Below are positions 1-31,979 of a DNA stretch of 32,865 bases, one piece after another. Numbering within the stretch: the stretch's first letter is position 1; the number at the start of each line of letters is the position of its first letter. The DNA lies in contig JAEUHV010000575.1 in NCBI GenBank assembly GCA_016794485.1, positions 1 through 32,865 on the forward strand, written 5' to 3'. The DNA is from Planctomycetota bacterium (GTDB lineage Bacteria > Planctomycetota > UBA1135 > UBA2386). Below the pieces are notes generated by a model, which was given only the letters and a program-made list of their open reading frames with translations, was not told the DNA's origin and did no database searches. Both the position numbers and the translations under genes were made by a program.

Positions 1-1
1 C

Positions 2-64
2 GAGTCGTTGCTCGTCCGCGTGCGGCGGCAATTGCGCGCCTGTGTCGAAGGAAAGCTGTCATGA
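2..64 (+). CDS. C-terminal end of an ECF-type sigma factor (partial)
   Basis: Frame 2 is open from the window edge and encodes 20 residues ending LRACVEGKLS before TGA at 62-64. The arginine-rich helix (VRVRRQLRACVEG) resembles the last helix of sigma-70 region 4 in ECF factors, where the protein often ends with a motif such as RRRLxxxLE. The stop overlaps the next start as ATGA, which points to translational coupling with a membrane protein that looks like an anti-sigma factor. That context is the main reason for the call. The 5' part lies outside the window, so the family assignment is an inference. Confidence 0.5.
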   Translation, partial: ESLLVRVRRQLRACVEGKLS

Positions 65-1389
65 CTACGCACGACCCACTCGTCGACGGCGCGCTGCGCG
101 TGCTGTTCCTGGCCCCCTGCGAACCCGATCTGCGCAATCGCCTGATGGCGATCGCCGGACGACCTGGGTCGCATCGCCGCCCGCCGTGGCGCAATCTGGT
201 CCTTGCCGGCAGTGGCATCGCGTTGGCCGCACTGCTGCTCGCCGTTGTTCTCTGCACCGACGGGGATGGCACGGCGTTCACCCGACGAAGTGCCGACTGC
301 GTGCAGATCGTGAGTCGCTCCGGCGCGCCCGAGCATCTGCGGGTCGGCGCCATCACGCTGAGGGTCGACGGCTCCGCTCGCCTCGAATTCGCACCGCTTC
401 CGCCCGATTCCGAGAACCTCCCAATGACCCGAGACCAACTGCGTTCCTTCCTGGCGGCGCGCGCCGCCGTTCCCGTGTTCACCCTCGCGGTACTCAGCGG
501 TTCGGCCACCGTCGAAGCCCAGGAACGGCACGTCGTTCGCGCGGGCGAGACGCGCGAGGTGCGCCAGCCCACGCCAACGTCGCCGCAAGACCTTGCCAAG
601 GTGCGCGAACTCTGGGCCGCGACCCTGCTGACCACGGACGGCGTCGACTCGGCCGACGAACAGAGCCTCGAACTCGCCTTCCGCCTGCGCCGGCAACCGG
701 CGCTGTTCGGGGAAGTGCGCGCGGACCTCGTGCGGCGCGTCGCCGATCCGGCAACGACCGACGAAGTGTTCGACCGGCTCGTGCGCCTGCTCTGCCTCGA
801 TCCCGATGCGGGCAGTCTCGCCATCGCGACCCGGATGCTCACGGGCTCGCGCCCGATCCAGGACCCCGAAGCGTGGCTGTGTCTGAGCGAACGGGGTGTG
901 GCGGCAGCCCGCACTCGGCTTGCGGCGTACGTCGCGGAACAAGAACCCGACAGCGGCGAGGTGTTCGCCGCGGCCGCGCACCTGGCCGCAACCCAGGACC
1001 CGGCCCGACCGATCGACGTGGAGCACCTGCGCCACATCCTGCGCGCGGCGTTCGACCACGAGAACGGCCTCGAAGTGCCGGTCCTGCTGCGCGCAATGGT
1101 CGCTGCGCACGGATTGCATGCCCTCGGCGACGCGCGGCCGCTGGCCACCCTGTGGCGCGACCTCAAGTCGACGGTGGAAGAACAGCTCGGCATCCCGTAC
1201 CTCGCCGATGCTGCGCGCATGGTCGCGATCGCGGACTGGGTGTCGAACCACGGCATCGACGGCAAGCGCGGTTCGCTGGCGTGGCTCGACGACGGCTTCC
1301 TCGTGCCGTGGTCGCAGGAGCAGTTCGAACAGCAATTGGACTCCGCCGCGAAGATCCGCGCCCGGCTTGCGGTGATCCAACCGAAGTGA
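61..1389 (+). CDS. single-pass membrane anti-sigma/FecR-like protein
   Basis: This 442-residue protein has a short cytoplasmic N-terminus (about 1-44), one membrane helix (about 45-65, RNLVLAGSGIALAALLLAVV) and a large extracytoplasmic part. Residues 80-170 contain a FecR-like stretch: VQIVSRSG, then VLSGSATVEA and AGETREV, resembling the strands seen in FecR and related sensor proteins. The remainder (about 175-430) is alpha-helical and may form HEAT-like repeats. The start is chosen because ATG at 61 overlaps the TGA of the upstream sigma-like gene (ATGA). The layout fits an anti-sigma factor holding an ECF factor at the membrane and sensing envelope signals. No zinc-finger anti-sigma motif (HxxxCxxC) is visible. 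The family is inferred from layout rather than from a clear domain match. Confidence 0.6.
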   Translation: MTTHDPLVDGALRVLFLAPCEPDLRNRLMAIAGRPGSHRRPPWRNLVLAGSGIALAALLLAVVLCTDGDGTAFTRRSADCVQIVSRSGAPEHLRVGAITLRVDGSARLEFAPLPPDSENLPMTRDQLRSFLAARAAVPVFTLAVLSGSATVEAQERHVVRAGETREVRQPTPTSPQDLAKVRELWAATLLTTDGVDSADEQSLELAFRLRRQPALFGEVRADLVRRVADPATTDEVFDRLVRLLCLDPDAGSLAIATRMLTGSRPIQDPEAWLCLSERGVAAARTRLAAYVAEQEPDSGEVFAAAAHLAATQDPARPIDVEHLRHILRAAFDHENGLEVPVLLRAMVAAHGLHALGDARPLATLWRDLKSTVEEQLGIPYLADAARMVAIADWVSNHGIDGKRGSLAWLDDGFLVPWSQEQFEQQLDSAAKIRARLAVIQPK

Positions 1390-1400
1390 TCGGTCTGCGG

Positions 1401-1406
1401 CACAAT
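1401..1406 (+). promoter_or_regulatory. possible -10 box (CACAAT) for a leaderless transcript
   Basis: CACAAT ends six bases before the ATG at 1413, so transcription would start at or next to the start codon. The gap matches that of the TAGGCT box before the FUN14 gene at 12356. There is no clear -35 box, and the hexamer lacks the first T of the consensus. Confidence 0.25.
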
Positions 1407-1412
1407 GCAGGC

Positions 1413-2585
1413 ATGCCGAGCCACCCGTCGCGCTTCCGTCTGTGCATCTTCACCGTCGGTGCGTTGACCACGCTGCTCGCCGCCCAGGAACCGAAGCAAG
1501 AACCGGTCGTAGCGCTCGACCTCGCGGCGTTGGCGCACCAGCATGCGCTGCTCGCCGCGCGCCTCGACGCAGCCAAGCCCCTCGAACTGCCGAACGGCGG
1601 CCTGTGTGGCGTGCAGGGTGCGACCACCGTGCGTCTCGGCGGCAAAGCAGCCGTGACACTGCAACTGCCCCTGCCGCAGCTGACCCAAAGCCAGGTGCCG
1701 CTGGTGTTCGGCCTCGTCGCCCGCCCGCCCGAAGCGCTGCAGTCGCTCGCGCTGCACAGCGATGCGGACGGCGATCGACTGGTCGCTGTGCTGCAGGGCA
1801 AGTCCGGCACCGAAGTCACGCTCGCGTGGAACGCCATCGTGTTGCTCGCCGAACGGCCCGAGCCGGCCCCCGCGGCCGCCGCCCAACCGTTCCTCGCCGC
1901 GACGCCGTGCGCGCAATCCGGCGACGCCGCGATCGCCGCTCTCGCCGACGCCCTCGCACCGGTCGACGCGCCGACGCCAAAGCTCGCGACCGCACTGCAG
2001 GACTGGCTGCCTGGGCAGCCGCCGAAGAAGCGGCCGCGGAGCATGGACGCACTGGGATTGCTGGCGAGCGGCAACCACGGCATCTGCACGATGAACGCCA
2101 ACCTCGGCGTGGCCCTGCTGCGTCAGCGCGGCGTTCCGGCGCGTTCGCTCGCAGTGGTGCCGACCACGGGCCAGAAGCTCGAGATGCACCGCATCGTCGA
2201 ATGGCATGCCGACGGCCATTGGCATCGCTTCGACCCGTCGCGCGTGCACGCCGAGGTGCCGATGCGGTCGAGCCAGAGTGTCGTCATGGCGCACAGCTCG
2301 ATCGCCGACGAGGAACGCGGTGGCAAGCTGCGCATGGCGGTGCCGGTCGGCTGTCCATTCGGACAGGAAATCGAGATCGTGCGCGGCCAGGCGATGTTGT
2401 TCGGCACCGACTTCTTCTGGACCCAGGCACTCCCGCTCGCCGCGTTCGCCGCCGAGGAGGTGGACGTGAAGGCCGCGGCGACGGCGTGGCAGCAGTTCCG
2501 GCGCGAGGGTCGCGCGGCACCGGCAGCGGACCGGGCGGCGGCGGCCGGCGACGGCCCTGCGTTCCACGCCGCCTGGGGCAACTGA
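1413..2585 (+). CDS. exported transglutaminase-like domain protein
   Basis: The protein has 390 residues. Residues 1-24 look like a signal peptide (arginine near the start, a hydrophobic CIFTVGALTTLLA core, then AAQ). The C-terminal half carries a transglutaminase-like fold with the catalytic triad in order: Cys225 in NHGICT, His259 in LEMHRIVEW and Asp274 in HRFDPS. The family includes cysteine proteases, peptide N-glycanases and cross-linking enzymes, so the substrate cannot be named. The N-terminal 200 residues look like a beta-rich domain followed by an Ala/Pro-rich linker. The ATG was chosen because the signal peptide begins there. Longer in-frame starts exist upstream but overlap the anti-sigma gene in a different frame. 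The protein probably acts in the periplasm. It is not clear whether the upstream sigma factor controls it. Confidence 0.75.
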   Translation: MPSHPSRFRLCIFTVGALTTLLAAQEPKQEPVVALDLAALAHQHALLAARLDAAKPLELPNGGLCGVQGATTVRLGGKAAVTLQLPLPQLTQSQVPLVFGLVARPPEALQSLALHSDADGDRLVAVLQGKSGTEVTLAWNAIVLLAERPEPAPAAAAQPFLAATPCAQSGDAAIAALADALAPVDAPTPKLATALQDWLPGQPPKKRPRSMDALGLLASGNHGICTMNANLGVALLRQRGVPARSLAVVPTTGQKLEMHRIVEWHADGHWHRFDPSRVHAEVPMRSSQSVVMAHSSIADEERGGKLRMAVPVGCPFGQEIEIVRGQAMLFGTDFFWTQALPLAAFAAEEVDVKAAATAWQQFRREGRAAPAADRAAAAGDGPAFHAAWGN

Positions 2586-2610
2586 TCGCCGCCCCGGACG
2601 CCGCGGACGC

Positions 2611-4014
2611 TCACCAGATCTTCATGCCGGAGACGTTGGCGAAGTCGAACGACGCGCCGTTCCACGTCACGCCTTGCGTGAAGAACTCGACGCCGATGAG
2701 ACCCGGGTTGGCGGGAATGGCGATGGGCAGGCTCAGGTTGCCGATGCCCGCCGTGGTCAGCGCCAACGTCGACAAGTCGAGTCGCAGCGTACCGCCGAAG
2801 CCGGGAACCGGCGTCGGGGCGATGAGCGTCGTGGCGAAGCCGACCAGCCACAGCTGCGCCGGGCCGGCGAGCACTTCGAACGACGGCGTGCTGCCGTTCA
2901 TGGTCGAACCGATCGACTCGATGCTGAAGTTGCTGTTCGAAGTCGCGTCGGTCGGCGACGTGCCGTTGGTGATCTCGACGAAGTTGGCATCACCGTCGCC
3001 ATCGAGGTCGCCGGCCGGGTTCACGACGAGCGAGTATTGGAACTGTGTGCTGAGGGCCGCTTGCGTACCGAAGCCGAGGAACGTGCCCGACTGCAGGATC
3101 GTCGGGATCTCCAACGCACCCGTGTTCGGATCGACACGGCGCACTTCGCAAGCCACCCCGGTCGCCGAGCGCGACGTAAGACGGATGCGACCGACGTTGT
3201 CCGTGGCGATGCCGATGCCGTTCGGGGGAAGCGTCAAGGTTTGCAGGACACTGCCGTTGGTCTGGTCGATCTGGACCACCGTGCCGTTGCCGAAGCTGCT
3301 GACCCAGATGCGGCCGTTCTTGTCGAAGGTCGGCGGGTAGGCGGTGCTGGTCGTCGGCACCGGATAGAGGTTGAGGGTCGCTCCGGTCGCACCGTCGATC
3401 TCGACCAGCTGGTTGGCACTGTCACCCGTGACCCAGACGTGGCTCGGCTGCAGGATGCCCCGGTAGTCGGCGACGATCCCGGTCGGCAACAGCGTGCCGA
3501 TGCCGGCAATGGGGAAGTTGGTGATCGCCCCGGTGGGGTCGATGCGAGTCACCGAACCCGGCGACACGCGGTGGGCGATCCACTTGTTGCCGAGGCCGTC
3601 GACCGTGATGCCGAGCGACGAGTTCGCCGGCATCGTGTAGGTCTGCACGAACACGCCCGAAGCGTCGAACTCGTGCACCGCCGTGGCACCGTTGGTGATC
3701 CAGGCGTGGCCGTTCGCATCGAACGCGATCGCGTAGGCCGAACCGCTCGGCAGCGCGACCGGCGTCATGGTTGCGGTCGCAGGGTCGTAGATGTCGAACG
3801 TGGGCTGGATGAAGCGGACGATCCAGACCTTGCCGTCAGGAGCGACTTCACAGCGACGCAGGTTGGTCGGCGTCGCCACACGCTCGAGGACCGAACCCCA
3901 CTCCGACACCCGCATGATGTCGGAGGAGGTGCGGTTGGCGATCCAGTAGTTGCTCTGCGCGAGCACGGGAAGCCCGGTGAGGGAAGCAGCGAGAACGAAG
4001 GCGGTCGTCTTCAT
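2611..4014 (-). CDS. secreted beta-propeller (NHL/Vgb-like) protein with C-terminal sorting-like domain
   Basis: The protein has 467 residues. Residues 1-19 form a signal peptide (MKTTAFVLAASLTGLPVLAQ). Then come about six blade-like repeats with the pattern [KRH]xWIxx...xxxID..TG: KVWIVRF, HAWITNG, KWIAHR, HVWVTGD and RIWVSSF, as in streptogramin-lyase/NHL propellers. After the propeller is an acidic calcium-type loop (DLDGDGDANFVE). A C-terminal domain of about 100 residues follows, with hydrophobic strands and the motif NPGLIGVEFFTQG, a layout I associate with secreted proteins of some planctomycetes. No lyase active site can be named. It is probably a cell-surface or secreted binding protein. 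It stands alone, convergent with the transglutaminase gene (25 bases apart) and divergent from kdsD. Confidence 0.75.
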   Translation of the reverse strand: MKTTAFVLAASLTGLPVLAQSNYWIANRTSSDIMRVSEWGSVLERVATPTNLRRCEVAPDGKVWIVRFIQPTFDIYDPATATMTPVALPSGSAYAIAFDANGHAWITNGATAVHEFDASGVFVQTYTMPANSSLGITVDGLGNKWIAHRVSPGSVTRIDPTGAITNFPIAGIGTLLPTGIVADYRGILQPSHVWVTGDSANQLVEIDGATGATLNLYPVPTTSTAYPPTFDKNGRIWVSSFGNGTVVQIDQTNGSVLQTLTLPPNGIGIATDNVGRIRLTSRSATGVACEVRRVDPNTGALEIPTILQSGTFLGFGTQAALSTQFQYSLVVNPAGDLDGDGDANFVEITNGTSPTDATSNSNFSIESIGSTMNGSTPSFEVLAGPAQLWLVGFATTLIAPTPVPGFGGTLRLDLSTLALTTAGIGNLSLPIAIPANPGLIGVEFFTQGVTWNGASFDFANVSGMKIW

Positions 4015-4190
4015 GGTGGATCCGAGTTCCAGTCTGGGTTGATGGGTCGGGGGATCCGTCAAGTGTGATTGACCGGGGTGGATCGACAACCCGAGGACTC
4101 GTCGCGATGGCGCGTCGTTTCCGTAACGACCGCTGCGGGTTGGAGCCGAGTTGGCCACCCCCCGCAGTAGGTGCGGCCGCGGCCGTCGTG

Positions 4191-4196
4191 TACGCT
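4191..4196 (+). promoter_or_regulatory. possible -10 box (TACGCT) for kdsD
   Basis: TACGCT lies 11 bases before the kdsD ATG in the 193-base divergent gap, giving a predicted leader of only a few bases. No convincing -35 box or ribosome binding site is visible. The rest of the gap (4015-4190) shows no further feature. The same TANNNT-to-start spacing occurs before the ABC-F gene at 14521. Confidence 0.35.
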
Positions 4197-4207
4197 CCCC
4201 GCCCTCG

Positions 4208-5179
4208 ATGGACCAACGACTCGAACGCGCCCGCGACATCGTCGAGCGCGAAGCCGCCGCCTTGCGGATGGTCGCCGAACGCATCGGCCCCACGTTCTCC
4301 CGCGCCCTCGACCTGATCCTGGCCTTGCGCGGCCGGGTCGTCACCGCCGGCATGGGCAAGGCCGGGTTCATCGCCCAGAAGATCTCGGCGACGCTGGCGT
4401 CGACCGGCACCCCGTCGATCTTCCTGCACCCCGCCGAAGCCATCCACGGCGACCTCGGCCGCATCGACCCGACCGACCTCGTGCTCGCGTTCAGCAAGTC
4501 CGGCGAGACGCAGGAACTGCTGGTCATGCTGCCGCACGTGAAGACGGTCGGCGCCACGATCGTGTCGATCACCCAGAGTGCGACCTCGACTCTCGGCCGG
4601 CACAGCGATCTCGTGCTCGAACTCGGCAAGATCGACGAGGCCGGCCCGTACGGACTCGCGCCGAGCGCTTCGACCACTGCGATGCTGGCGCTCGGCGACG
4701 CGCTCGCACTGGTCGTGCAGGAGGGTCGCAAGTTCGGCCCCGAGGACTTCGCCCGGTTCCACCCCGGCGGCGACCTCGGCCGTCGCCTGATGAAGGTCGG
4801 CGAACTGATGCGCACCGGCGACCGCAACCCGCACCTTCGCAGCGGCACCACGGTGCTCGAAGCGATCGGCGTGATGACGCGCACGCCGGGCCGTCCGGGC
4901 GCGACCAGTGTGGTCGACGCGAACGGCCGCCTGGTCGGGTTCTTCACCGACGGCGACCTGCGTCGCCTGATCGAACGCGGCCTCGACAACCCGCGCGCCC
5001 GCTCGATCGACGAGGCGATGACGAAGAACCCGCGGTCGATCTCCCCCGACACGTTCGCGCTCGAAGCGCTCGCGCTGCTGCACCAGTACGCCATCGACCA
5101 GCTCCCGGTCGTCGACGGCGACGGACGGCTGCTCGGGCTGCTCGACGTGCAAGACCTGCTCAACCTCAAGATCGGATGA
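4208..5179 (+). CDS. kdsD: D-arabinose-5-phosphate isomerase
   Basis: The protein (323 residues) converts D-ribulose 5-phosphate to D-arabinose 5-phosphate, the first step toward Kdo for the inner core of LPS. The SIS domain (about 1-195) contains GMGKAG (48-53), IHGDLG (79-84), SKSGET (96-101) and FHPGGDLG (184-191), whose histidine corresponds to the catalytic one in E. coli KdsD. Two CBS domains follow (about 198-262 and 265-323). Length and order match the KdsD/KpsF/GutQ family. The ATG at 4208 gives a normal N-terminus. The stop overlaps the next gene as ATGA, and the four genes kdsD, kdsC, lptC-like and lptD form one overlapping operon for LPS building and export. GutQ/KpsF paralogues share the fold, but this context favours KdsD. 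Confidence 0.93.
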   Translation: MDQRLERARDIVEREAAALRMVAERIGPTFSRALDLILALRGRVVTAGMGKAGFIAQKISATLASTGTPSIFLHPAEAIHGDLGRIDPTDLVLAFSKSGETQELLVMLPHVKTVGATIVSITQSATSTLGRHSDLVLELGKIDEAGPYGLAPSASTTAMLALGDALALVVQEGRKFGPEDFARFHPGGDLGRRLMKVGELMRTGDRNPHLRSGTTVLEAIGVMTRTPGRPGATSVVDANGRLVGFFTDGDLRRLIERGLDNPRARSIDEAMTKNPRSISPDTFALEALALLHQYAIDQLPVVDGDGRLLGLLDVQDLLNLKIG

Positions 5180-5733
5180 CGCGCATGCCTTCCGTTCCCG
5201 GCCGGCCGCTCCCTTCCCAGGCGGCGCTCGCGGCGATCGAGTTCCTGCTGCTCGACGTCGACGGCGTGCTGACCGACGGTCGCATCTGGTTCGATCCGCA
5301 TGGCGACGAGTACAAGCAGTTCCACGTGCACGACGCCGCGGGCCTGCACTACTGGCACCGAGCGGGCGGCCGCACCGGGTTCCTGTCGGGGCGCGGCGGG
5401 CACGCCGTCGAACGGCGCGCGCGCGAACTCGGCGTGCACGACGTGATCCTGAAGCGGGTCGACAAGCTGCGGGCGTTCGAGGAATTGCTGCGCCGCCATT
5501 CCCTGCGGCCCGAGAACATCGCCTATGTCGGCGACGACGTGGTCGACCTTCCCGTGCTGCGCGTGTGCGGCTACGCGGTGACGGTGCCGGAAGCGCGACC
5601 CGACGTGTTCCCGCACGTGCACCGCATCACCGGACGTTCGTCGGGATTCGGTGCGGTGCGCGACGTGATCGAAGACCTGCTGCGGGCCCGCGGGGTCTGG
5701 CAGGCCGTGCTCGACAAGGACGGGCGTTCGTGA
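5176..5733 (+). CDS. kdsC: 3-deoxy-D-manno-octulosonate-8-phosphate phosphatase
   Basis: The protein (185 residues) removes phosphate from Kdo 8-phosphate in the Kdo pathway. It is a C0-type HAD phosphatase with no cap domain. Motif I is LLLDVDGVLTDG (Asp27 nucleophile, Asp29 acid/base), motif II is Ser71 in FLSGR, motif III lysine is in ILKRVDK (93 or 97) and motif IV is YVGDDVVDLP (Asp120/Asp121). The length fits the KdsC family (about 180 residues). The ATG at 5176 overlaps the kdsD stop (ATGA). A second in-frame ATG at 5185 would shorten the protein by three residues. The stop overlaps the next start as GTGA. kdsA and kdsB are not in the window. Confidence 0.92.
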   Translation: MTRMPSVPGRPLPSQAALAAIEFLLLDVDGVLTDGRIWFDPHGDEYKQFHVHDAAGLHYWHRAGGRTGFLSGRGGHAVERRARELGVHDVILKRVDKLRAFEELLRRHSLRPENIAYVGDDVVDLPVLRVCGYAVTVPEARPDVFPHVHRITGRSSGFGAVRDVIEDLLRARGVWQAVLDKDGRS

Positions 5734-8681
5734 AGCGACTGCTCGCGTTCCTGGCCCTGCTGGCCCTCGGCATCGTCGCACTGCGCATCGCGATCGGCGA
5801 CGAGACCGCGGTGCGCGGCGGCGCCTCGACCAGGTCGTCCGCCGGGCAGGGTCCGGACGCGCCGGTGCCGGACTCCGGCACCGGCGTGGCGTTCGAACAC
5901 GGCAAGGTGAGCGCCACGGTCACGGTCCGTGGCCAGGTTGACTGGCCGCGCAAGAAGGCCACGCGCGAGGCGGACGGGTCCGTGCGCTGGGAGACGATCT
6001 ACGTGCTGAAGGCCGCCGACAGCCGGCCGCTGGCCGCCGGCGTGCAACAGTTCGACGCCGTCGAGTTGTTGCTGAACGACCACGGCGTACACGTGGCGAC
6101 GATGCGTGCCGAGCGCGCATTCGCCGAACTGTCGCGCGACGCGAACGGTCGGCCCTCGCTCGACGAGAACAAGGACATCGACCTGCGCAAGCTCGTGTTG
6201 GACGGCTTGCCTTCGGGCCGTCTCGCCGGCCTGCACGGCGAGTTCGGCGACGCCAAGGTCCGGATCGAAGGCGACGAAGTGCGGATCAACACGGCGCGCG
6301 ACCAAGACGTGCTGGTGACGATGGCGGGCGAGCGGCCGATGACCCTGCGCGGCAAAGGCATGCAGGCGCGCCTGCCGCGCGATTCCAACGGTGCCCTGCA
6401 GCGCGCCGACCTCGAGATCCTGTCGCGTCCGGAACTGACCGGCGAAGGCTTCGTCGCGCGCGCCGACGGCCGCCTGCACTGGTACGAGGACCTCGCTGCC
6501 GGAGCGGGGCGCATCACGCTCGACGATCGCATCGAGGTCGAACTCGCCGACGGCGTGTTCGCGCTGCCGAGCCAAAACCGCACCGGAGCGACGCGCGGCC
6601 GCACGACGGTCCGCGGCGACCAGTTCCTCGCCTGGCTGGTGCGGCGCGAGGTTCCAGGCGCGAACGGGGGCAAGCGCTCGGAAGTGCAGTGGCGCAAGCT
6701 CGTGCTCACCGGAGCGCCGGCGAGCGTCGACTTGCCCGAGGGACGACTGACGACGCCTCGCCTCACTGCATTGCCCGGCCCGTTCGGCGAGCCCTTCCTG
6801 GTCACGGCCCACGGCGGCGAATCGAAACTCGAGCAACTGCAGCTGCGGCCAGGCAGCCGACAGAAGGACCCGGTGACCGGCACGGCCCAACGGCGCATCC
6901 ACGTGGTGCGTCCGGGTCAGCAGAGCGGGGCGATGCACCGCGCATTCGGCTTCCCACAGTGGACCCTGCGCATCGTCGACGGCCTGCAGGTCGTGTCGAC
7001 CGAAGGGCGCACCCAGCTCGACAGCGGCGCGCGTTCGCTGATGTCGCGCGACGGCGTGCACCTGCTGCGTCGCGACGGCGCCGACACCGGATTCGTCCGC
7101 GGGTTCGGCCCGGTGGAGCTGCGACAGAAGGCCAAGACCGCGGGCGAACCCGACCTCGTCGCCACCGGCAGCGACGGCTTCACGATCCGCGCCACGCCGG
7201 CCGGCGAGGAACTGCACCTCGGCCCACCGCTCGATTCCGGCACCACGGTGCAGCAACTCGGCGCGCACACGTTCGACATCCGCCGCGGCGACGCGTGGCT
7301 GCGCGGCCAGGGCTCGGCCAAGGCGGTCCAGACCGGCGAACGCATCGACCTCACCGTGGTCGCAGCCGAGGCGTCGCTGCTGGCCACGCTGCCGAGCGAA
7401 GGCATCGACCTGCGCGGCCTGCATCGTCTGGCCGCGACCTGGAACGGCACCACGCTGACAGACTTCGACGCCGCGGGCTGGCCGGCGAACGTGCACATTG
7501 CGCGCGGCGACGAGAAGGTGCTGGCGCGGGCACCGCGCGTGCGGCAGATCGGTCCCCGCAGCATGCGGCTCCTGCCCGCCGATCCGGCGACGCCGATGCT
7601 CTGGAGCGGACTGCCCGATGCCGATCGCCTGCCCGTGATCGACCGCGCCGGCCGTTCGGCGCACTCGTCCGAATCGATCCAGGTACGCGGCCACCAGGTC
7701 GACGTGCACCAGGTCGGGGCCCGCGACGTGCTGGTCGATGCCGCAGCGGTCGACGACGAACGTCCGACCATCCACGCGACCATCACCGGCCCCGACGGTG
7801 TCGCCACGACCACGATCGCGGCCACCGCCGAACGGCTGCGCCTGTTGCCTGGACTGCTGCCGCGCGACGTGCTGCGTTGGCACGGCGTCGGCGACCACTC
7901 GGCGTTGGCGACGGTCGCGGGCCATTCCCTCGCGCAACCCTGGCTCGTGGTCGACCGCGTGCACGCGTTCGAACTCGACGACCCGCGCCACGGCCACGTC
8001 ACCGGCCGCGGCCATCGCCTGTTCGTCAGCCGCGGCGGCGGCGCCGCGATATTCGTCGGCGATCCCGAGTCCGGCGCCACCGCCCGCGTCGAGCGCACGA
8101 AGGACGGCCGCGTCGTCACCTTGGACGGGGCCCGTGTGCGTTTGTTCGACGACGAGCTGGTCCGCCTGCAGGCACTGGCGACGTTCGCCGACGGCGGCAC
8201 ACCACTGCTGCCCAAGCTCGTGTTGCGCGAAGGCCACGACAAGGGTCTCTTGTCGCACATGCAGGCGGTCTGTGGCGGTGACATCGAAGTGCTGCCGCGC
8301 GAAGTGCTGTTCCGCGGCCCCGTGCGAGCCGACGCTCTGAGCGCCGACGGAACCGTCGACGCCGCTGGCCTGCACCTCGACGCGGCCGAACTGCACATGC
8401 TGCGCGACTCGAACCCGCAGCGGTCCACCTACGGCGAAGTGGTCGCGGTCACCGGCAAGGAAGTCGTGGTCGCATGGACCCGAATGTCGGCCCGCTGCGG
8501 CACGATCGCGTTCGACCTGCCGCGCAATCGCTGCACGATCGCCGACGACGACGAAGCGACCGTCGTGCTCGAGAACGGCCTCGAGGTGCGCGCGCCGCGC
8601 GTCGAGGTCGACTACGACACCCTGGCGCTGCGCGGCCAAGGGCTGCGGGTCCGCCAACTCCCGGCCGAGGTCGCCCGGTGA
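5730..8681 (+). CDS. very large LptC/LptA-like periplasmic LPS-transport protein
   Basis: The protein (983 residues, GTG start overlapping the kdsC stop) begins with one membrane helix (about 3-21, RLLAFLALLALGIVALRIAI), like LptC. The rest is beta-rich with no enzyme motif. The segments after the anchor read like LptC/OstA strands (GKVSATVTVRGQVDW, then ELLLNDHGVHVATMRAERAF and DAKVRIEGDEVRI). The last 60 residues (VLENGLEVRAPRVEVDYDT, then LRGQGLRV) look like LptA/OstA repeats. E. coli LptC has about 190 residues and LptA about 185, so this is five times longer. It may be a single-chain bridge that replaces separate LptC and LptA. Position supports this: it lies between kdsC and lptD, overlapping both. 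The family call comes from context and weak strand patterns. Confidence 0.6.
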   Translation: MKRLLAFLALLALGIVALRIAIGDETAVRGGASTRSSAGQGPDAPVPDSGTGVAFEHGKVSATVTVRGQVDWPRKKATREADGSVRWETIYVLKAADSRPLAAGVQQFDAVELLLNDHGVHVATMRAERAFAELSRDANGRPSLDENKDIDLRKLVLDGLPSGRLAGLHGEFGDAKVRIEGDEVRINTARDQDVLVTMAGERPMTLRGKGMQARLPRDSNGALQRADLEILSRPELTGEGFVARADGRLHWYEDLAAGAGRITLDDRIEVELADGVFALPSQNRTGATRGRTTVRGDQFLAWLVRREVPGANGGKRSEVQWRKLVLTGAPASVDLPEGRLTTPRLTALPGPFGEPFLVTAHGGESKLEQLQLRPGSRQKDPVTGTAQRRIHVVRPGQQSGAMHRAFGFPQWTLRIVDGLQVVSTEGRTQLDSGARSLMSRDGVHLLRRDGADTGFVRGFGPVELRQKAKTAGEPDLVATGSDGFTIRATPAGEELHLGPPLDSGTTVQQLGAHTFDIRRGDAWLRGQGSAKAVQTGERIDLTVVAAEASLLATLPSEGIDLRGLHRLAATWNGTTLTDFDAAGWPANVHIARGDEKVLARAPRVRQIGPRSMRLLPADPATPMLWSGLPDADRLPVIDRAGRSAHSSESIQVRGHQVDVHQVGARDVLVDAAAVDDERPTIHATITGPDGVATTTIAATAERLRLLPGLLPRDVLRWHGVGDHSALATVAGHSLAQPWLVVDRVHAFELDDPRHGHVTGRGHRLFVSRGGGAAIFVGDPESGATARVERTKDGRVVTLDGARVRLFDDELVRLQALATFADGGTPLLPKLVLREGHDKGLLSHMQAVCGGDIEVLPREVLFRGPVRADALSADGTVDAAGLHLDAAELHMLRDSNPQRSTYGEVVAVTGKEVVVAWTRMSARCGTIAFDLPRNRCTIADDDEATVVLENGLEVRAPRVEVDYDTLALRGQGLRVRQLPAEVAR

Positions 8682-23623: not shown

Positions 23624-23938
23624 GCCCCAGAAGCCGCCGCAGCGGGGTTGGCTGCGCAACCTCGCGGTGGTCTCTCCCCGCGTCGCGGTGGCCCCGGCAA
23701 ACCAGAGAAGAGTCGCCCCTTGGGCGGGGCCCCAGAAGCCGCCGCAGCGGGGTTGGCTGCGAAACCTCGCGGTGGTCTCTCCCCGCGTCGCGGCGGCCCC
23801 GGCAACATTGATCTGCGCCGCCCCTTGGGCGGGGCCCCAGAAGCCGCCGCAGCGGGGTTGGTTGCGTAACCTCGCGGTGGTCTGTCCCCGCGTCGCGGCG
23901 GCCCCGGCAACATTGATCTGCGCCGCCCCTTGGGCGGG
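23624..23938. repeat. three tandem 105-bp repeats downstream of dnaA
   Basis: Three units begin at 23624, 23729 and 23834, each exactly 105 bases, all starting GCCCCAGAAGCCGCCGCAGC. Units 2 and 3 differ at four positions. Unit 1 differs mostly in a stretch of about 14 bases near its end. Each unit holds two hairpins: CGCAGC/GCTGCG with a 7-base loop, and CCGCCC/GGGCGG with a CTT loop. In unit 3 the first stem changes GCTGCG to GTTGCG, keeping a G-U pair in RNA, and in unit 1 the second stem begins TCGCCC, again allowing a wobble. Preserved pairing suggests the elements act as RNA structures. The array ends five bases from the dnaA stop. Confidence 0.9.
23923..23937 (-). terminator. hairpin six bases after the dnaA stop, possible terminator
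   Basis: CCGCCC, loop CTT, GGGCGG forms a 6-bp GC stem immediately downstream of the dnaA stop. It is the last hairpin of the 105-bp array, and two further copies follow in the direction of transcription. There is no run of T, so intrinsic termination is uncertain. Confidence 0.35.
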
Positions 23939-23943
23939 GCAGA

Positions 23944-28014: not shown

Positions 28015-28023
28015 GCGCTCGGG

Positions 28024-28053
28024 ATGGTAGCGAGTCTGATACACACCAAACAA
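28024..28053 (-). promoter_or_regulatory. possible bshA promoter (TTGTTT, 18 bases, TACCAT)
   Basis: On the minus strand TTGTTT (28048-28053) and TACCAT (28024-28029) are 18 bases apart. TACCAT ends nine bases before the ATG at 28014, giving a leader of a few bases with no ribosome binding site. The remainder of the gap to 28146 shows nothing else. Confidence 0.4.
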
Positions 28054-28146
28054 GCTCCTGACGAACCATCATGGTGGACCAATGATAATCACCATCAATC
28101 AAGCCAACAGTCGTCAGCCGGAAAGGTGGCGAAAATTGGCTGATGG

Positions 28147-28332
28147 TTATTTGCTGTCCCCATGGTCGCGAGGCCACCACAAGCTGATCAGGGACAAAGC
28201 AATCCATAATGCGCACAGAACAATGAACAGTGCATTGCCTGCCCCGAATAAAACTATTGAAACGCCTGTGCAAAACAGAAGAACCATGACACATAACCTG
28301 ACAGCCCGAGCAATACCCCGGACCCCAGTCAT
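28147..28332 (-). CDS. small two-helix membrane protein coupled to the Cys-rich gene
   Basis: The protein has 61 residues from ATG 28332, which overlaps the stop of the cysteine-rich gene as ATGA. Two hydrophobic segments are visible: about 9-25 (AVRLCVMVLLFCTGVSIVLF) and about 28-49 (NALFIVLCALWIALSLISLWW), with a charged end PRDHGDSK. Longer in-frame starts exist (28353, 28365), but the ATGA junction matches how other genes here are joined. A small membrane protein directly after a bacteriocin-like precursor is the usual place for an immunity protein. I do not recognise a family, so this role is inferred from position and size only. Confidence 0.6.
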   Translation of the reverse strand: MTGVRGIARAVRLCVMVLLFCTGVSIVLFGAGNALFIVLCALWIALSLISLWWPRDHGDSK

Positions 28333-29300
28333 GGTTTTGGACACAAAAGGCATGCTGTCACGCATGCCCCGGCTGAGAATGCACAAACTGCGCTGACAAC
28401 GTTCAGGCAACCAGAAACAGCTGCCCCGCCTGCGACCGGAATTAGCCACCCAAGTTGGCACGACAATAGTCCTGTGGTCATACATAGAGCGCCTGCCTCT
28501 GTGCACATAGTCTCGCACTCAGACCTGCTGCACCCAGGCCAAGGCGGTTCGGGTCGTGGGGGTGGCGGTGGATTGTGTCTGCTGATACTACCTGGGCAGT
28601 CCGGCCAAGTCGCTTTACACAATGCTGATCCCCGGCACGGTTCGTTGCACGCCGTGTCTGTGTAACCCGTCGACCATTCCTGCAGAATGCACAGATTGCA
28701 TTCCATAGATACCTGATGGCAGTAAGGAGGGCACCCGTCTCCATGGTGAGGGAAATACGGATAGTCCGGAAGGGGGGGGAGTGGAGGGCACAGTGGGGAG
28801 CTGCATTCTTGCTTCGAGTTGTAGCTCCTATAAAAAATCTCAGCGTTCTGCCTCCAGTCGTAGTATAGTCTTACGAGCCCGTTGTCCTCCGCATTATCCA
28901 TCATTTTAAGCGCCATCAAATACCCATCACGAATCTTCTCACAATCATCTGGGCAGTCGAATTCAAATGAAGGTTGACAAGCCCAACTTTCGGAGCACTC
29001 ACGGCGACGATTCTGTTCACTGATGGGCCAAGGATGGACTTCAACGCTCTCGGAGGTATTCTTCAGCCAGTCATGTTCGCTCCGCATCTGGCTTCCGCCA
29101 CATTTTCCACCACAGCCACTGCACGATCCCCCGCATTGGCAATCATCGGAAGATCCACCACAATCGCAAGAGTTCATTCTCGTCGAGTGGGTTCGTCGAA
29201 TTCCGCGGGAATACGCGTTGGTGGTTTCGTCGATCCTTGGTGGAGCCCCGAAACGCCGACGATTTGTTGCGACGGAATTTTCCGTAGTTTCGGTTGTCAT
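28329..29300 (-). CDS. cysteine-rich protein with halocin C8-like C-terminal domain
   Basis: The protein has 323 residues with 31 cysteines and no Sec signal peptide. Residues 1-43 are polar and arginine-rich. Residues 45-67 are a CxC/CGG-rich segment (CDCGG, CQCGGSC, CGGKCGG). A middle region (about 100-240) has many Cys and Trp. A proline linker (244-256) leads to a hydrophobic C-terminal domain (257-323) with exactly 10 Cys: 257, 262, 266, 273, 281, 298, 306, 313, 317, 320. Its centre reads LGWLIPVAGG, then GCLNVVSAVC. Halocin C8, as I recall it, has 10 Cys in 76 residues, an IPVAG in the same place and the same C-8-C, C-8-C spacing, and is cut from the end of a longer precursor. Base use here is clearly lower in GC than in the neighbours. 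Confidence 0.65.
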   Translation of the reverse strand: MTTETTENSVATNRRRFGAPPRIDETTNAYSRGIRRTHSTRMNSCDCGGSSDDCQCGGSCSGCGGKCGGSQMRSEHDWLKNTSESVEVHPWPISEQNRRRECSESWACQPSFEFDCPDDCEKIRDGYLMALKMMDNAEDNGLVRLYYDWRQNAEIFYRSYNSKQECSSPLCPPLPPLPDYPYFPHHGDGCPPYCHQVSMECNLCILQEWSTGYTDTACNEPCRGSALCKATWPDCPGSISRHNPPPPPRPEPPWPGCSRSECETMCTEAGALCMTTGLLSCQLGWLIPVAGGAAVSGCLNVVSAVCAFSAGACVTACLLCPKP

Positions 29301-29433
29301 GTGTGGAGACCCTATCCGAGGTCGAGATAGACTCTTCAACGACTTTCCGAATTGTGGGTAGTTTCTGGCGACGGATAGAAGTTCCATCTGCAAGACTTGT
29401 TTCGGCGTTGAATCTCGGAGTGACCCTGGGTGC

Positions 29434-29796
29434 CTACCTGTCGCCCATCCATGAAGGCGAAAGCGCGCGGAAGACCACGTAGTTGGAGGTGCTGTTGGTG
29501 CTTCCGGTCTTGAACCTGTAGCGAACCAACTGCTTTGCCTTGGTTGTGTTCATGACTGTAGTAGTGCCTTTCGAGCTGGTCCCCGTGCTGGCAGTGATCG
29601 TGGTTTCGACCGTGGGGTCGTCCAGTGTTCGAGTCTGCACTTCCCAGGTCAGTGTGACACCGTTCACTTCTGTCACTTCGACTGCGAACCTGGCGTAGTC
29701 ACCGCGTACAGGCATCCACGGGGTGTAGGCCCAGTCGCCGGAAGCCGTTCCCGACCAGCCTTCGTAGAGGATCTCGCCTTGGAGTTGGTTCGTCAT
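29434..29796 (-). CDS. small paralogous beta-rich protein, third of three
   Basis: The protein has 120 residues and no signal peptide. It shares with the two genes upstream the pattern WMP (27-29), a strand with VQT[KR] and acidic residues (WEVQTRTLDDPTVE), AKQLVRYRF (87-95) and a C-terminal Trp (SPSWMGDR). The Thr/Ser-rich strands suggest a single beta-sandwich domain. A GGAG lies eight bases before the ATG. It starts 14 bases after the second paralogue. A 133-base gap without a clear promoter or terminator separates it from the cysteine-rich gene. I do not recognise the family. Confidence 0.65.
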   Translation of the reverse strand: MTNQLQGEILYEGWSGTASGDWAYTPWMPVRGDYARFAVEVTEVNGVTLTWEVQTRTLDDPTVETTITASTGTSSKGTTTVMNTTKAKQLVRYRFKTGSTNSTSNYVVFRALSPSWMGDR

Positions 29797-29810
29797 GTGG
29801 GGTCTCCGGA

Positions 29811-30161
29811 TCAGTTGGGTTGCCAGAGGGGTTGCGCGAACTGCAGGTGAACGACGCCGGCTTTGCTGCTGACTACGCGGTAACGCACCAGTTCCTTGGC
29901 GTTGGCGAGGTCGAACTTGTAGGTGACCGGAGTTGTCGTCGTGACCGACGAGATTGCCACGGAGCCGATGGGCCCGGCATCCGCATCGATTTCATCGGAA
30001 GACTTCGTGTCCATGTACACGGTGAAGGCGCTGGCAGAAGAGTTGTAGAATACCTCGCAGCCACCGACACCGTCGTTGCCACCTGCCGGCATCCAGTAGC
30101 CCGTCACGGTCTTTCCGGTTGCAGGTGCATTGATGTTCTCGCCAAGAAGAGTGAGATCCAT
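29811..30161 (-). CDS. small paralogous beta-rich protein, second of three
   Basis: The protein has 116 residues and no signal peptide. Shared motifs are GYWMP (21-25), YMDTKSSDEIDADAG (49-63), AKELVRYR (88-95) and the end PLWQPN. ATG 30161 is preceded by the strong ribosome binding site GGAGGA five to six bases before the start, which decides between this start and the longer frame. It follows the first paralogue by 13 bases. The identical C-terminal WQPN in the first two members indicates recent duplication or a functional tail. The family is not recognised. Confidence 0.7.
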   Translation of the reverse strand: MDLTLLGENINAPATGKTVTGYWMPAGGNDGVGGCEVFYNSSASAFTVYMDTKSSDEIDADAGPIGSVAISSVTTTTPVTYKFDLANAKELVRYRVVSSKAGVVHLQFAQPLWQPN

Positions 30162-30174
30162 GGGTTCCTCCAGG

Positions 30175-30540
30175 TCAATTGGGTTGCCAGATGATCGGGT
30201 TGGTGCGCATGTGGACCCAGCGGTCGGTCCCGGCCCCATTGCACTCGAACTTGATGCGCACCAGTTCCTTGGCGCCGGTGAGCACCGCGGTGAACTTGTT
30301 GATGGGCCAGGTCGCAGCGGCATCGATCGTCACCGATCCGAGATCGCTTGCCGATGCGTCGCTGTCCTCGGAGTCCTTGGTTTGCACCTTGCAAACGATC
30401 GACCAGCCTGTGGTTGCAGACGCGCGCAGAACTTCGAAGACAGCGGTCAAGGCGTCGCCGTGACGCGGCATCCAGGCTCCGAAGTAGTTGACCCCGGGCG
30501 TTCCCGATCCCGGAATGAAGATGGTCTGTCCGATCAGCAT
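30175..30540 (-). CDS. small paralogous beta-rich protein, first of three
   Basis: The protein has 121 residues and no signal peptide. Motifs shared with its neighbours are GAWMP (21-25), VQTKDSEDSDASASDLG (52-68), AKELVRIKF (90-98) and the end IIWQPN. The ATG at 30540 lies inside the last codons of the sigma-like gene (overlap ATGCTGA, seven bases), preceded by AGAGGA about nine bases upstream. So it is directly coupled to the regulator. A single-domain beta structure without export signal points to a cytoplasmic or assembled protein, possibly a particle or fibre subunit, but this is a guess. The family is not recognised. Confidence 0.7.
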   Translation of the reverse strand: MLIGQTIFIPGSGTPGVNYFGAWMPRHGDALTAVFEVLRASATTGWSIVCKVQTKDSEDSDASASDLGSVTIDAAATWPINKFTAVLTGAKELVRIKFECNGAGTDRWVHMRTNPIIWQPN

Positions 30541-31256
30541 GCTTGGTTTCCTCTTTCGACCTCTTGGTCGGGTGGTCGGCGACATCGCCGACACCAAGAA
30601 GGAGGATCGCCACCGAAGAAACTCGCGAAAATTCCTTCACTGCGGTGACGGATCGTCTCTCTCGCCAGCTCGATCGTGCGCTTTTGGACGCCGAGTTCGG
30701 CTGCCAGTTGTGGGTTGGACAGTTCTCGTTCCTTGAGCAGCAGCAGGAGTTTGCGAGCGGTCCTGTTTGAGGCGGTCAGCAAGGCCTCCACAATGTGCGT
30801 TGCCCATCGACCGGACTCATCCGGGAATTCTTGGACCGATGACGAATGGGCGAATTCGTCCAGGATTCCGCACACGACTGTAGGTCGAACCGGATCGGGG
30901 ATCGCAGCGGACAACTGCCGGCAACACGTCGTGCTGGCGTACTTCCAAATGCGCCGTTCGGGGTGTTCATCCGCACCGAGCCATTCGAGGGTGATGGTGA
31001 TGGCTTCGGCTGCGAAGTCCTCGGCGTCGGCGATGGATTGGCGCCTCTTGAGCATCATCCACAGCAGCAACTTGTGCAGGGACTTCCAGTCAACGGTGCC
31101 GGCGGACGCGATCTTGCCCCACTCCGGGAAGCCGATGCCCGATGCCCGATGCCCGATGCCCGATGCCCGATGCCCGATGCCCGATGCCCGATGCCCGATG
31201 CCCGATGCCCGATGCCCACGAGACTCGCCGAATCGATCTGGACGCTCATCACCCAC
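30534..31256 (-). CDS. ECF sigma-like regulator with frame-sensitive repeat near its start
   Basis: The protein has 240 residues (GTG 31256). Residues 14-41 are the peptide GHRASGI repeated four times, encoded by twelve 7-base units. The rest resembles a small sigma-70 factor: a region 2-like part (LHKLLLWMMLKRRQSIADAEDFAAEAITITLEWL, about 60-93, with the AED motif of region 2) and a region 4-like helix-turn-helix (LLLLKERELSNPQLAAELGVQKRTIELARETI, about 170-202). No separate DNA-binding check is possible here. AGGAGG lies five bases before the GTG. A second start, ATG 31249 in another frame, also follows it (12 bases). The gene overlaps the first small paralogue by seven bases. It is likely a dedicated regulator of the island. 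Confidence 0.65.
   Translation of the reverse strand: MGDERPDRFGESRGHRASGIGHRASGIGHRASGIGHRASGIGFPEWGKIASAGTVDWKSLHKLLLWMMLKRRQSIADAEDFAAEAITITLEWLGADEHPERRIWKYASTTCCRQLSAAIPDPVRPTVVCGILDEFAHSSSVQEFPDESGRWATHIVEALLTASNRTARKLLLLLKERELSNPQLAAELGVQKRTIELARETIRHRSEGIFASFFGGDPPSWCRRCRRPPDQEVERGNQAC
31134..31217. repeat. twelve perfect 7-bp repeats (GATGCCC) inside the sigma-like gene
   Basis: Twelve exact copies of GATGCCC run from 31134 to 31217 (84 bases). Because seven is not a multiple of three, loss or gain of one unit shifts the reading frame of the downstream sigma domains, while the repeat itself encodes the same cyclic peptide GHRASGI in every frame. This is the classic structure of a slipped-strand contingency locus. 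Confidence 0.95.
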
Positions 31257-31261
31257 GTGTC

Positions 31262-31267
31262 CTCCTG
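31262..31267 (-). promoter_or_regulatory. ribosome binding site of the sigma-like gene
   Basis: AGGAGG on the minus strand is a full Shine-Dalgarno match. It is five bases before GTG 31256 and 12 before ATG 31249, which favours the GTG. The rest of the 132-base gap (31257-31388) shows no clear promoter. Confidence 0.6.
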
Positions 31268-31388
31268 AGTTCGCGCGCCTCCTTGCTCAGCGAACGACTC
31301 GGCGGCGAGTCTAGGGTTCGTTGGCGGCAGCGGCAAGCCGGGGTTCCTGGCCTCCTGGCTGTCCTTGACGAACGCCGCCGGCTCAGAA

Positions 31389-31979
31389 TCAGTCTTCGAC
31401 GACGAGCGCTTGCGGCAGTTCGACGACGACGAACAGGTTGCCGAACGCGTCGTGGTCGATGCGGCAATTGCCGCGCATGCCGGCGACGAACTCGCACAGC
31501 GTTTCCGTTCGTTGCCGCAGGTGGTGGTCGCGCTTGCCGCCGCGGCTTTCGAGTTCGAGCACGAGCCCGTCGTCGTCGGCGCGCGTCGTGACCACGAGTT
31601 CGCCGCCGACCTCGAGCCGCCCCGCGGCGATCACCATCGCGCGCTGCACGGCGTAGGCGAGCTGGCTCGGCGTGCACGCGATCTGCGGCAGGTCGGTCGC
31701 GAGCCGTTGCCGAACCACGATCGAAGCGCCGAGTTCTTGCACGCAGGACTCGACCGCGGCGCCGACGATCCGGTTGAGGTCACACCGTTCCGGCGATTGC
31801 CGGTCGACCAGCGAGCCGACCAGTTCCTGCAATGTCGCGGCCTCGTTCTCGAGCACGTCGCCGAGGTCGTCGTCTTGTTCGTCGCCGAGCTGCTGGATCT
31901 GGAACGCGCGTTCGTCGATGCGCCCGAGGCACTGTCCGAGCAGCGTCGTCAGGTGATCGAGATTCGGCTCGCGCTTCAT
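31389..31979 (-). CDS. degenerate histidine-kinase-like protein
   Basis: The protein has 196 residues. An N-terminal helical part (about 5-62) ends in ENEAATLQELVGSLVDR, similar to the second helix of a HisKA dimerization domain, but no phosphoacceptor histidine is seen in the usual place. It is followed by CDLNRIVGAAVESC and TPSQLAYAVQRAMVIAA, in the position of the N box where the Asn of NxxxNA is missing. The strands ELVVTTRADDDGLVLELESRGG sit where DxGxG should be. ATP binding is therefore doubtful. It lies 62 bases after parA and may be in its operon. It could act as a protein-interaction or regulatory domain. The family is uncertain. Confidence 0.55.
   Translation of the reverse strand: MKREPNLDHLTTLLGQCLGRIDERAFQIQQLGDEQDDDLGDVLENEAATLQELVGSLVDRQSPERCDLNRIVGAAVESCVQELGASIVVRQRLATDLPQIACTPSQLAYAVQRAMVIAAGRLEVGGELVVTTRADDDGLVLELESRGGKRDHHLRQRTETLCEFVAGMRGNCRIDHDAFGNLFVVVELPQALVVED

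Follow-up and report, generated by a model that had tools for sequence, protein, structure and literature searches.

A genomic island in a planctomycete with features of a phase-variable, sigma-driven polymorphic toxin-like cassette

We analyzed a 32,865-nucleotide stretch of DNA (the window) from the metagenome-assembled genome (MAG) of a Planctomycetota bacterium (GenBank assembly GCA_016794485.1, contig JAEUHV010000575.1), referred to here as contig C402 of genome G000 (5.94 Mb, 605 contigs, 83% complete). The window carries a 3.37-kb, low-GC island whose six same-strand genes fill positions 28015 to 31388. They encode a regulator resembling extracytoplasmic function (ECF) sigma factors, three paralogous small proteins, a cysteine-rich protein, and a small membrane protein. 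On balance, we lean toward reading this island as a polymorphic toxin-like cassette that is phase-variable, driven by a sigma factor, and equipped with a new jelly-roll partner module. The sigma-like gene holds a frame-shifting repeat near its start, the Cys-rich protein belongs to a set with short shared N termini and differing remainders, and the gene downstream of it encodes a product with a predicted membrane, signal, or lipoprotein segment at nearly all loci scored.

RESULTS

Layout of the island

The features of the island are as follows.

28015-31388, minus strand: accessory island, inserted between the kinase-like gene (31389-31979) and bshA (ATG at ~28014)
30534-31256, minus strand: ECF-sigma-like regulator, starting at a GTG that is in frame with the assembled number of repeat copies
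31132-31217, no strand: perfect array of the heptanucleotide CCGATGC, x12.3, in the part of the sigma-like gene that encodes the N terminus
30175-30540, minus strand: small jelly-roll protein 1, by AlphaFold2 model; profile relatives in tandem arrays
29811-30161, minus strand: small jelly-roll protein 2, paralogue; closest relatives L024:1371-1721 and L026:521-940
29434-29796, minus strand: small jelly-roll protein 3, paralogue; relatives in L024 (61% identity), L026 (50%), L027 (37%), and L029 (54%)
28329-29387, minus strand: Cys-rich effector-like protein, 352 amino acids, 31 Cys; conserved N terminus MELLSVARNYPQFGKSLKS, CDCGG/CGG linker, variable hydrophobic Cys-rich C terminus
28147-28332, minus strand: two-helix membrane protein, 61 amino acids, putative immunity protein, judging from its sequence, its hydropathy, and its equivalent place in other cassettes

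This layout had in large part been proposed in an earlier reading of the sequence (the original prediction). We confirmed all six minus-strand open reading frames (ORFs), in one direction and at or near the predicted positions, as well as the 7-base overlap of the sigma-like ORF with small protein 1, the spacing of small proteins 2 and 3 (13 and 14 bases), the count of 31 cysteines in the precursor, and the junction with the two-helix gene, whose ATG overlaps the stop codon of the Cys-rich gene. The start of the Cys-rich precursor was revised. It most likely lies at the ATG at 29387 (MELLSVARNYPQFGKS) rather than at ~29301, because the N terminus read from there is conserved in loci L024 and L039. 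This leaves 46 bases, instead of 133, between small protein 3 and the precursor, and the interval 29301-29433, earlier suggested for reverse transcription-PCR, is mostly coding.

A frame-shifting repeat in a sigma-like gene

The first gene appears to encode a divergent ECF-sigma-like protein, an assignment that is weak by profile. The protein is homologous to those at L040 of G008 (E 6e-9) and L041 of G007 (E 3e-6), of which the L041 protein scores above the Pfam cut-off for Sigma70_r2. Among folds similar to the AlphaFold2 model of the window protein, those of ECF sigma factors and sigma region 4 come first, all at E > 0.1. The window protein would share with ECF sigma factors similarity in regions 2 and 4, and it has their small size and a place at the head of an operon that it probably controls; it differs from them in its very divergent sequence, its repeat-encoded N-terminal tail, and the lack of an adjacent anti-sigma gene.

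The CCGATGC array (TRF score 172, 100% matches) lies just inside this gene. The frame of the GTG at 31256 is open through the sigma domain, and that of the ATG at ~31249 is out. Heptamer arrays of other sequence occupy the 5' end of sigma-like genes in four more genomes: GACCGAC x9 in G028, CCCGAGT x4.9 in G005, GGCTTGG x4.4 in G022, and CCCATTC x3.4 in G008. A perfect repeat inside the 5' coding region, with a unit that is not a multiple of 3, was thus found in the window and four other genomes, at copy numbers that differ between species (3.4 to 12.3, in consensus assemblies). The G028 array splits the sigma domain over two frames that would be continuous at another copy number, and in this genome, as in G005, G022, and G008, the best-placed ATG is out of frame at the assembled copy number. 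Another G028 sigma copy has an 8-bp array at its 3' end. The original prediction of a phase-variable sigma factor is supported as regards its repeats, which are frame-shifting and keep their position in independent genomes with different units; slippage within them would bring about the switching.

Background DNA from these genomes (260 kb, after removal of one masked contig) contained no heptamer array of at least 3 copies, and 20 ordinary ECF sigma loci had neither heptamer nor octamer arrays. Three genes of the sigma subfamily itself, in G007, G024, and G016, lack arrays. The background sample contained two octamer arrays, in G000:C60 and in L152 (G028:C1). The first (GAGGCTCG x6.5; L150, 6350-6401) marks the 5' end of another ECF-like sigma gene of this subfamily and genome (ORF 5863-6414, minus strand), directly upstream of a gene for an RHS-repeat protein (ORF 1-5829, minus strand; RHS_repeat, E 7e-20). 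Because RHS proteins are a classical scaffold of polymorphic toxins, a conflict gene of a known type appears to stand under the same switch. The second (CTGTCTGC x6.1; L152, 17185-17233) lies in the signal-peptide coding region of a gene for a 938-amino-acid secreted protein, which is likely phase-variable.

The sigma copies of G008, G007, and G016:C20 head a different operon, without the small proteins. At L040 (3014-4011), L041 (2522-3777), and L202 (4968-5949), the sigma subfamily heads a gene for a small secreted Cys-rich protein and one for a large protein with a membrane or signal segment; a heptamer array is present at L040.

These repeats resemble the contingency loci of Haemophilus influenzae and other bacteria, in which perfect short repeats just past the start codon shift the reading frame (PMC2651432). 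Here, by contrast, the gene switched would be an ECF-like sigma factor, and thus a whole operon via its regulator; the units are 7 to 8 bp, and the host is a high-GC planctomycete.

A Cys-rich protein with a constant front and an exchanged back

At about 20 loci, an array of small-protein genes is followed by a gene for a protein of 250 to 500 amino acids, mostly with a Cys/Gly-rich N-terminal half, and then by a gene for a lipoprotein or membrane protein. All-against-all BLAST revealed short N-terminal matches between otherwise unrelated Cys-rich proteins. The N terminus of the window protein matches those of L024 (24 amino acids, 50%, E 1e-4) and L039 (55 amino acids, 31%, E 8e-5), and L096 matches L105 and L101 over the N-terminal 17 to 21 amino acids at 65 to 67%. 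In G055, the paralogous cassettes L033 and L034 are nearly identical over their first 57 residues and divergent beyond. A constant N terminus with a differing C terminus was thus found in three independent groups (L033/L034, window/L024/L039, and L096/L105/L101).

The C termini that follow differ in kind. Pfam matches above the cut-off were DUF3750 in L091, AMOP in L037, and DUF6973 in L034, the last in another frame, which may reflect an assembly error or a decayed gene. The L031 C terminus has a metalloprotease-like HExxH motif, spotted by eye. In the window protein this part is hydrophobic and Cys-rich, and unrelated domains take its place in relatives. Polymorphic toxins are defined by just such an architecture, in which the front is constant and the back is exchanged, and the shared short N terminus with a differing remainder therefore argues for a polymorphic toxin-like reading.

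A predicted membrane-anchored or exported partner downstream

The downstream product has an N-terminal signal, lipobox, or transmembrane segment at 20 of 22 loci, compared with 14 of 138 control genes, as scored by one hydropathy and lipobox rule applied to loci and controls alike; the downstream ORFs were selected manually from frames that overlap, and the control rate is probably an underestimate because ORFs were taken long. We regard the contrast as indicative, and the excess of membrane proteins and lipoproteins would be strong even against a control rate of one-third. Membrane-anchored partners fit either envelope-acting immunity proteins or anchors of a surface structure. From this architecture, a toxin role for the Cys-rich protein and an immunity role for the two-helix protein are plausible.

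Small jelly-roll proteins in tandem arrays

The three small proteins are paralogous, as originally predicted, the second and third being 34% and 26% identical to the first. AlphaFold2, run on small protein 1 with 27 relatives, predicted an eight-stranded sandwich (mean pLDDT 87.5, pTM 0.79). The best Foldseek matches were CBM4, CBM22, CBM6, and MAM domains at TM scores of 0.5 to 0.6 (1gui, E 8e-4, TM 0.59). We have good confidence in the model, and the match it suggests is to a generic jelly roll only. The small proteins would share the eight-stranded sandwich with the CBM4, CBM6, CBM22, and MAM domains, from which they differ in being free-standing, encoded in tandem arrays, without a visible signal peptide, and without sequence similarity to solved structures: a sequence-profile search found no relative in the PDB, and Pfam and PHROGs searches found no named family.

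The small-protein family was found in 14 of 154 genomes of the class and 18 of 392 in the phylum sample (~5%), and is common in two other families (8 of 12 and 3 of 5 genomes). Its genes usually form tandem arrays of 1 to 5 copies. A narrower profile scan of genome contigs gave matches in three Planctomycetota MAGs and two further bacterial MAGs. L039 (G014, 4171-5445) is a decayed cassette; a transposase-like gene lies there beside a truncated small protein and an effector N terminus with a PQFGKS motif.

Recurrence of the cassette

The complete six-part layout is present in three genomes (G000, G028, and G005). The core order of paralogous small proteins, Cys-rich precursor, and membrane protein was found repeatedly in other genomes, as expected of the recurring unit first proposed. 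Homologues did not turn out to be scattered apart from one another, nor did known families account for each member. Because most cassettes outside the window's own family show no adjacent sigma gene, the cassette family appears to be the wider entity and the sigma switch an addition specific to one lineage.

Insertion at a conserved site

The six-gene unit is an insertion, a self-contained accessory island between bshA and the kinase-like gene, in agreement with the original prediction. The site is empty in 10 of 10 relatives (G001-G005, G007, G008, G011, G016, and G022), where the kinase-like gene lies directly beside bshA, at a distance of 34 to 75 bp in nine and 422 bp in G003. In the same ten, the gene order parA, kinase-like gene, bshA, cysteine-desulfurase-like gene, dnaA is kept to the limits of the contigs. 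The start codon of bshA and the stop codon of the kinase-like gene mark the two limits of DNA similarity to the closest relative, G003. The insertion call is based on the empty site; composition by itself was not taken as evidence of transfer. The GC content of the island is 57.7%, compared with 68.7% in the rest of the window, and the lower value predicted for its left half was confirmed (53.2%).

In G003, about 420 bp of unrelated sequence occupies the site between the kinase-like gene and bshA (L162, 7520-7949), which may thus be an insertion hotspot. The island parts two genes that are 34 to 75 bp from each other in most relatives, so bshA expression may be affected. Elsewhere in the window, three near-identical 105-bp tandem copies (93% matches) lie just 3' of the dnaA stop codon (23624-23940).

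DISCUSSION

Proposed mechanism

Slippage in the observed 7-bp array would shift the observed reading frame of the sigma gene, and the sigma factor would then be made in some cells only. Judging from overlap, spacing, and direction, it would transcribe its own operon. The products would be three jelly-roll proteins, as modeled, together with an effector and a membrane-anchored immunity protein, roles that the architecture suggests. In the effector, a short conserved segment at the N terminus would serve for docking, and a Cys/Gly linker would join it to a C-terminal domain that can be exchanged. The jelly-roll proteins would most likely bind the effector N terminus and carry or display the effector, and its hydrophobic Cys-rich C-terminal segment would act at the envelope of neighbor cells without the matching membrane protein. 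Switching would spare part of the population the cost of the weapon.

The cassettes share with the polymorphic toxins described in 2012 (RHS, CDI, MafB, and WXG; PMC3482391) a constant N terminus, an exchangeable C-terminal domain, an immunity-like gene directly 3', a patchy island distribution, and paralogous copies in one genome. They differ in lacking RHS, filamentous-hemagglutinin, WXG, PAAR, and MafB trafficking domains and in bringing free-standing jelly-roll arrays, a Cys/Gly linker, and a putatively phase-variable sigma-like gene at the head. Pfam and NCBIfam searches of the effectors and small proteins found no RHS, CDI, WXG, PAAR, MafB, or other trafficking or secretion domain. The text of PMC3482391 contains none of "sigma factor," "phase variation," and "jelly," and none of the open-licence papers searched links toxins of this type with both sigma factors and phase variation.

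Alternative readings and opposing evidence

The main rival, which we consider unlikely, is a phase-variable surface-coat or adhesin cassette, in which CBM-like proteins would bind glycans and the Cys-rich protein would form a disulfide-linked surface layer or matrix. Its variable C terminus would serve to vary antigens or receptors, for instance as a defense against predators or phages, and the lipoprotein or transmembrane protein would be an anchor instead of an immunity protein. The closest folds to the small proteins (CBM4, CBM22, CBM6, and MAM) suit this reading, as does the nearly constant membrane or lipid anchor of the partner, and the AMOP domain in L037 leaves it standing. Repeats of this kind classically switch surface structures, such as the hmw adhesins of H. 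influenzae (PMC2651432). However, neither the small proteins nor the Cys-rich protein has a visible signal peptide, a repeat-bearing sigma gene of the same kind precedes an RHS gene, and the abrupt change from constant to variable sequence within one genome (G055) and the HExxH-like effector suit toxins better.

A stand-alone bacteriocin operon, in which the Cys-rich protein would be processed to a hydrophobic, disulfide-rich C-terminal peptide with the two-helix protein as immunity protein, seems improbable. The precursor had been called halocin C8-like, and the likeness to halocin C8 and other bacteriocins lies in its hydrophobic Cys-rich C terminus and the adjacent small membrane protein; the L024 and L104 effectors, which also have hydrophobic ends, likewise precede small proteins with 2 to 3 transmembrane segments. 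The C terminus differs from bacteriocins in having no profile match and no conservation in relatives, most of which have large, non-peptide C termini, and the jelly-roll arrays would be left unexplained. The halocin C8 label was not supported: searches of Pfam, NCBIfam, and PHROGs gave nothing better than chance matches, with no NCBIfam match up to E 1, a best Pfam match (YxzE, E 0.31) far below the cut-off, and no bacteriocin family found in either library; whether the two include a halocin C8 model was not checked.

We give very little weight to the idea that the island comes from a phage, or acts against phages by abortive infection, and encodes proteins of a structural type. The generic jelly-roll fold does resemble phage tail-fiber and CBM-like domains, and the island sits in otherwise conserved gene order, but tblastn found no match in phage or plasmid records, nor was there one in IMG/VR (small-protein-3 profile) or PHROGs. 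The island has no integrase or other phage genes; no PADLOC search was made.

Several observations weigh against the polymorphic toxin-like reading that we prefer. The window Cys-rich protein has no known toxin domain in Pfam, NCBIfam, and PHROGs searches, one relative carries the adhesion-associated AMOP domain, and HEAT-repeat or other large partners lie downstream elsewhere. L093 and L090b break the rule of a membrane-anchored partner, and the hand-picking of downstream ORFs bears on that rule as well. For the switch, the window sigma-like protein matches NCBIfam sigma70-ECF at E 0.026, a weak match, its AlphaFold2 model is of low confidence (pLDDT 56), and repeat copy numbers come from metagenome consensus assemblies. 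Cassettes outside the window's family (in f63, f15, and f33) have no adjacent sigma gene, and the G008 sigma copy heads an operon without small proteins. Export is likewise a difficulty, since no signal peptide is visible in the Cys-rich protein and no known secretion machinery explains it. We considered and rejected delivery by a type VI secretion system or other contractile machine: VipB was found in 6 of 17 cassette genomes and the phage sheath protein (Phage_sheath_1) in 3 of 17. Because both are patchy and absent from G000 at its 83% completeness, a known contractile machine would not be required, with the reservation that the genomes are incomplete.

Implications

We put forward tentatively, as a possibility, that these cassettes form a new polymorphic effector class in Planctomycetota, in which free-standing jelly-roll arrays carry or display exchangeable effectors and a sigma gene with 7- to 8-bp repeats switches on the whole system in a subset of cells. 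Phase variation usually switches a single surface gene or methyltransferase; here, it is a sigma-like regulator, at the head of a putative effector operon, that carries the switch. That several genera have independent repeats at this one position, each with a sequence of its own, suggests selection for switching. If this holds, the repeat-bearing sigma subfamily, which also heads an RHS gene and operons for secreted Cys-rich proteins, would be a general stochastic switch for conflict genes. Should the effectors prove to be toxins, repeat-bearing ECF-like sigma genes would be a sequence signature for finding further conflict operons, and polymorphic toxins would gain a new carrier module in the jelly-roll arrays, in a phylum where antagonistic systems have received little study.

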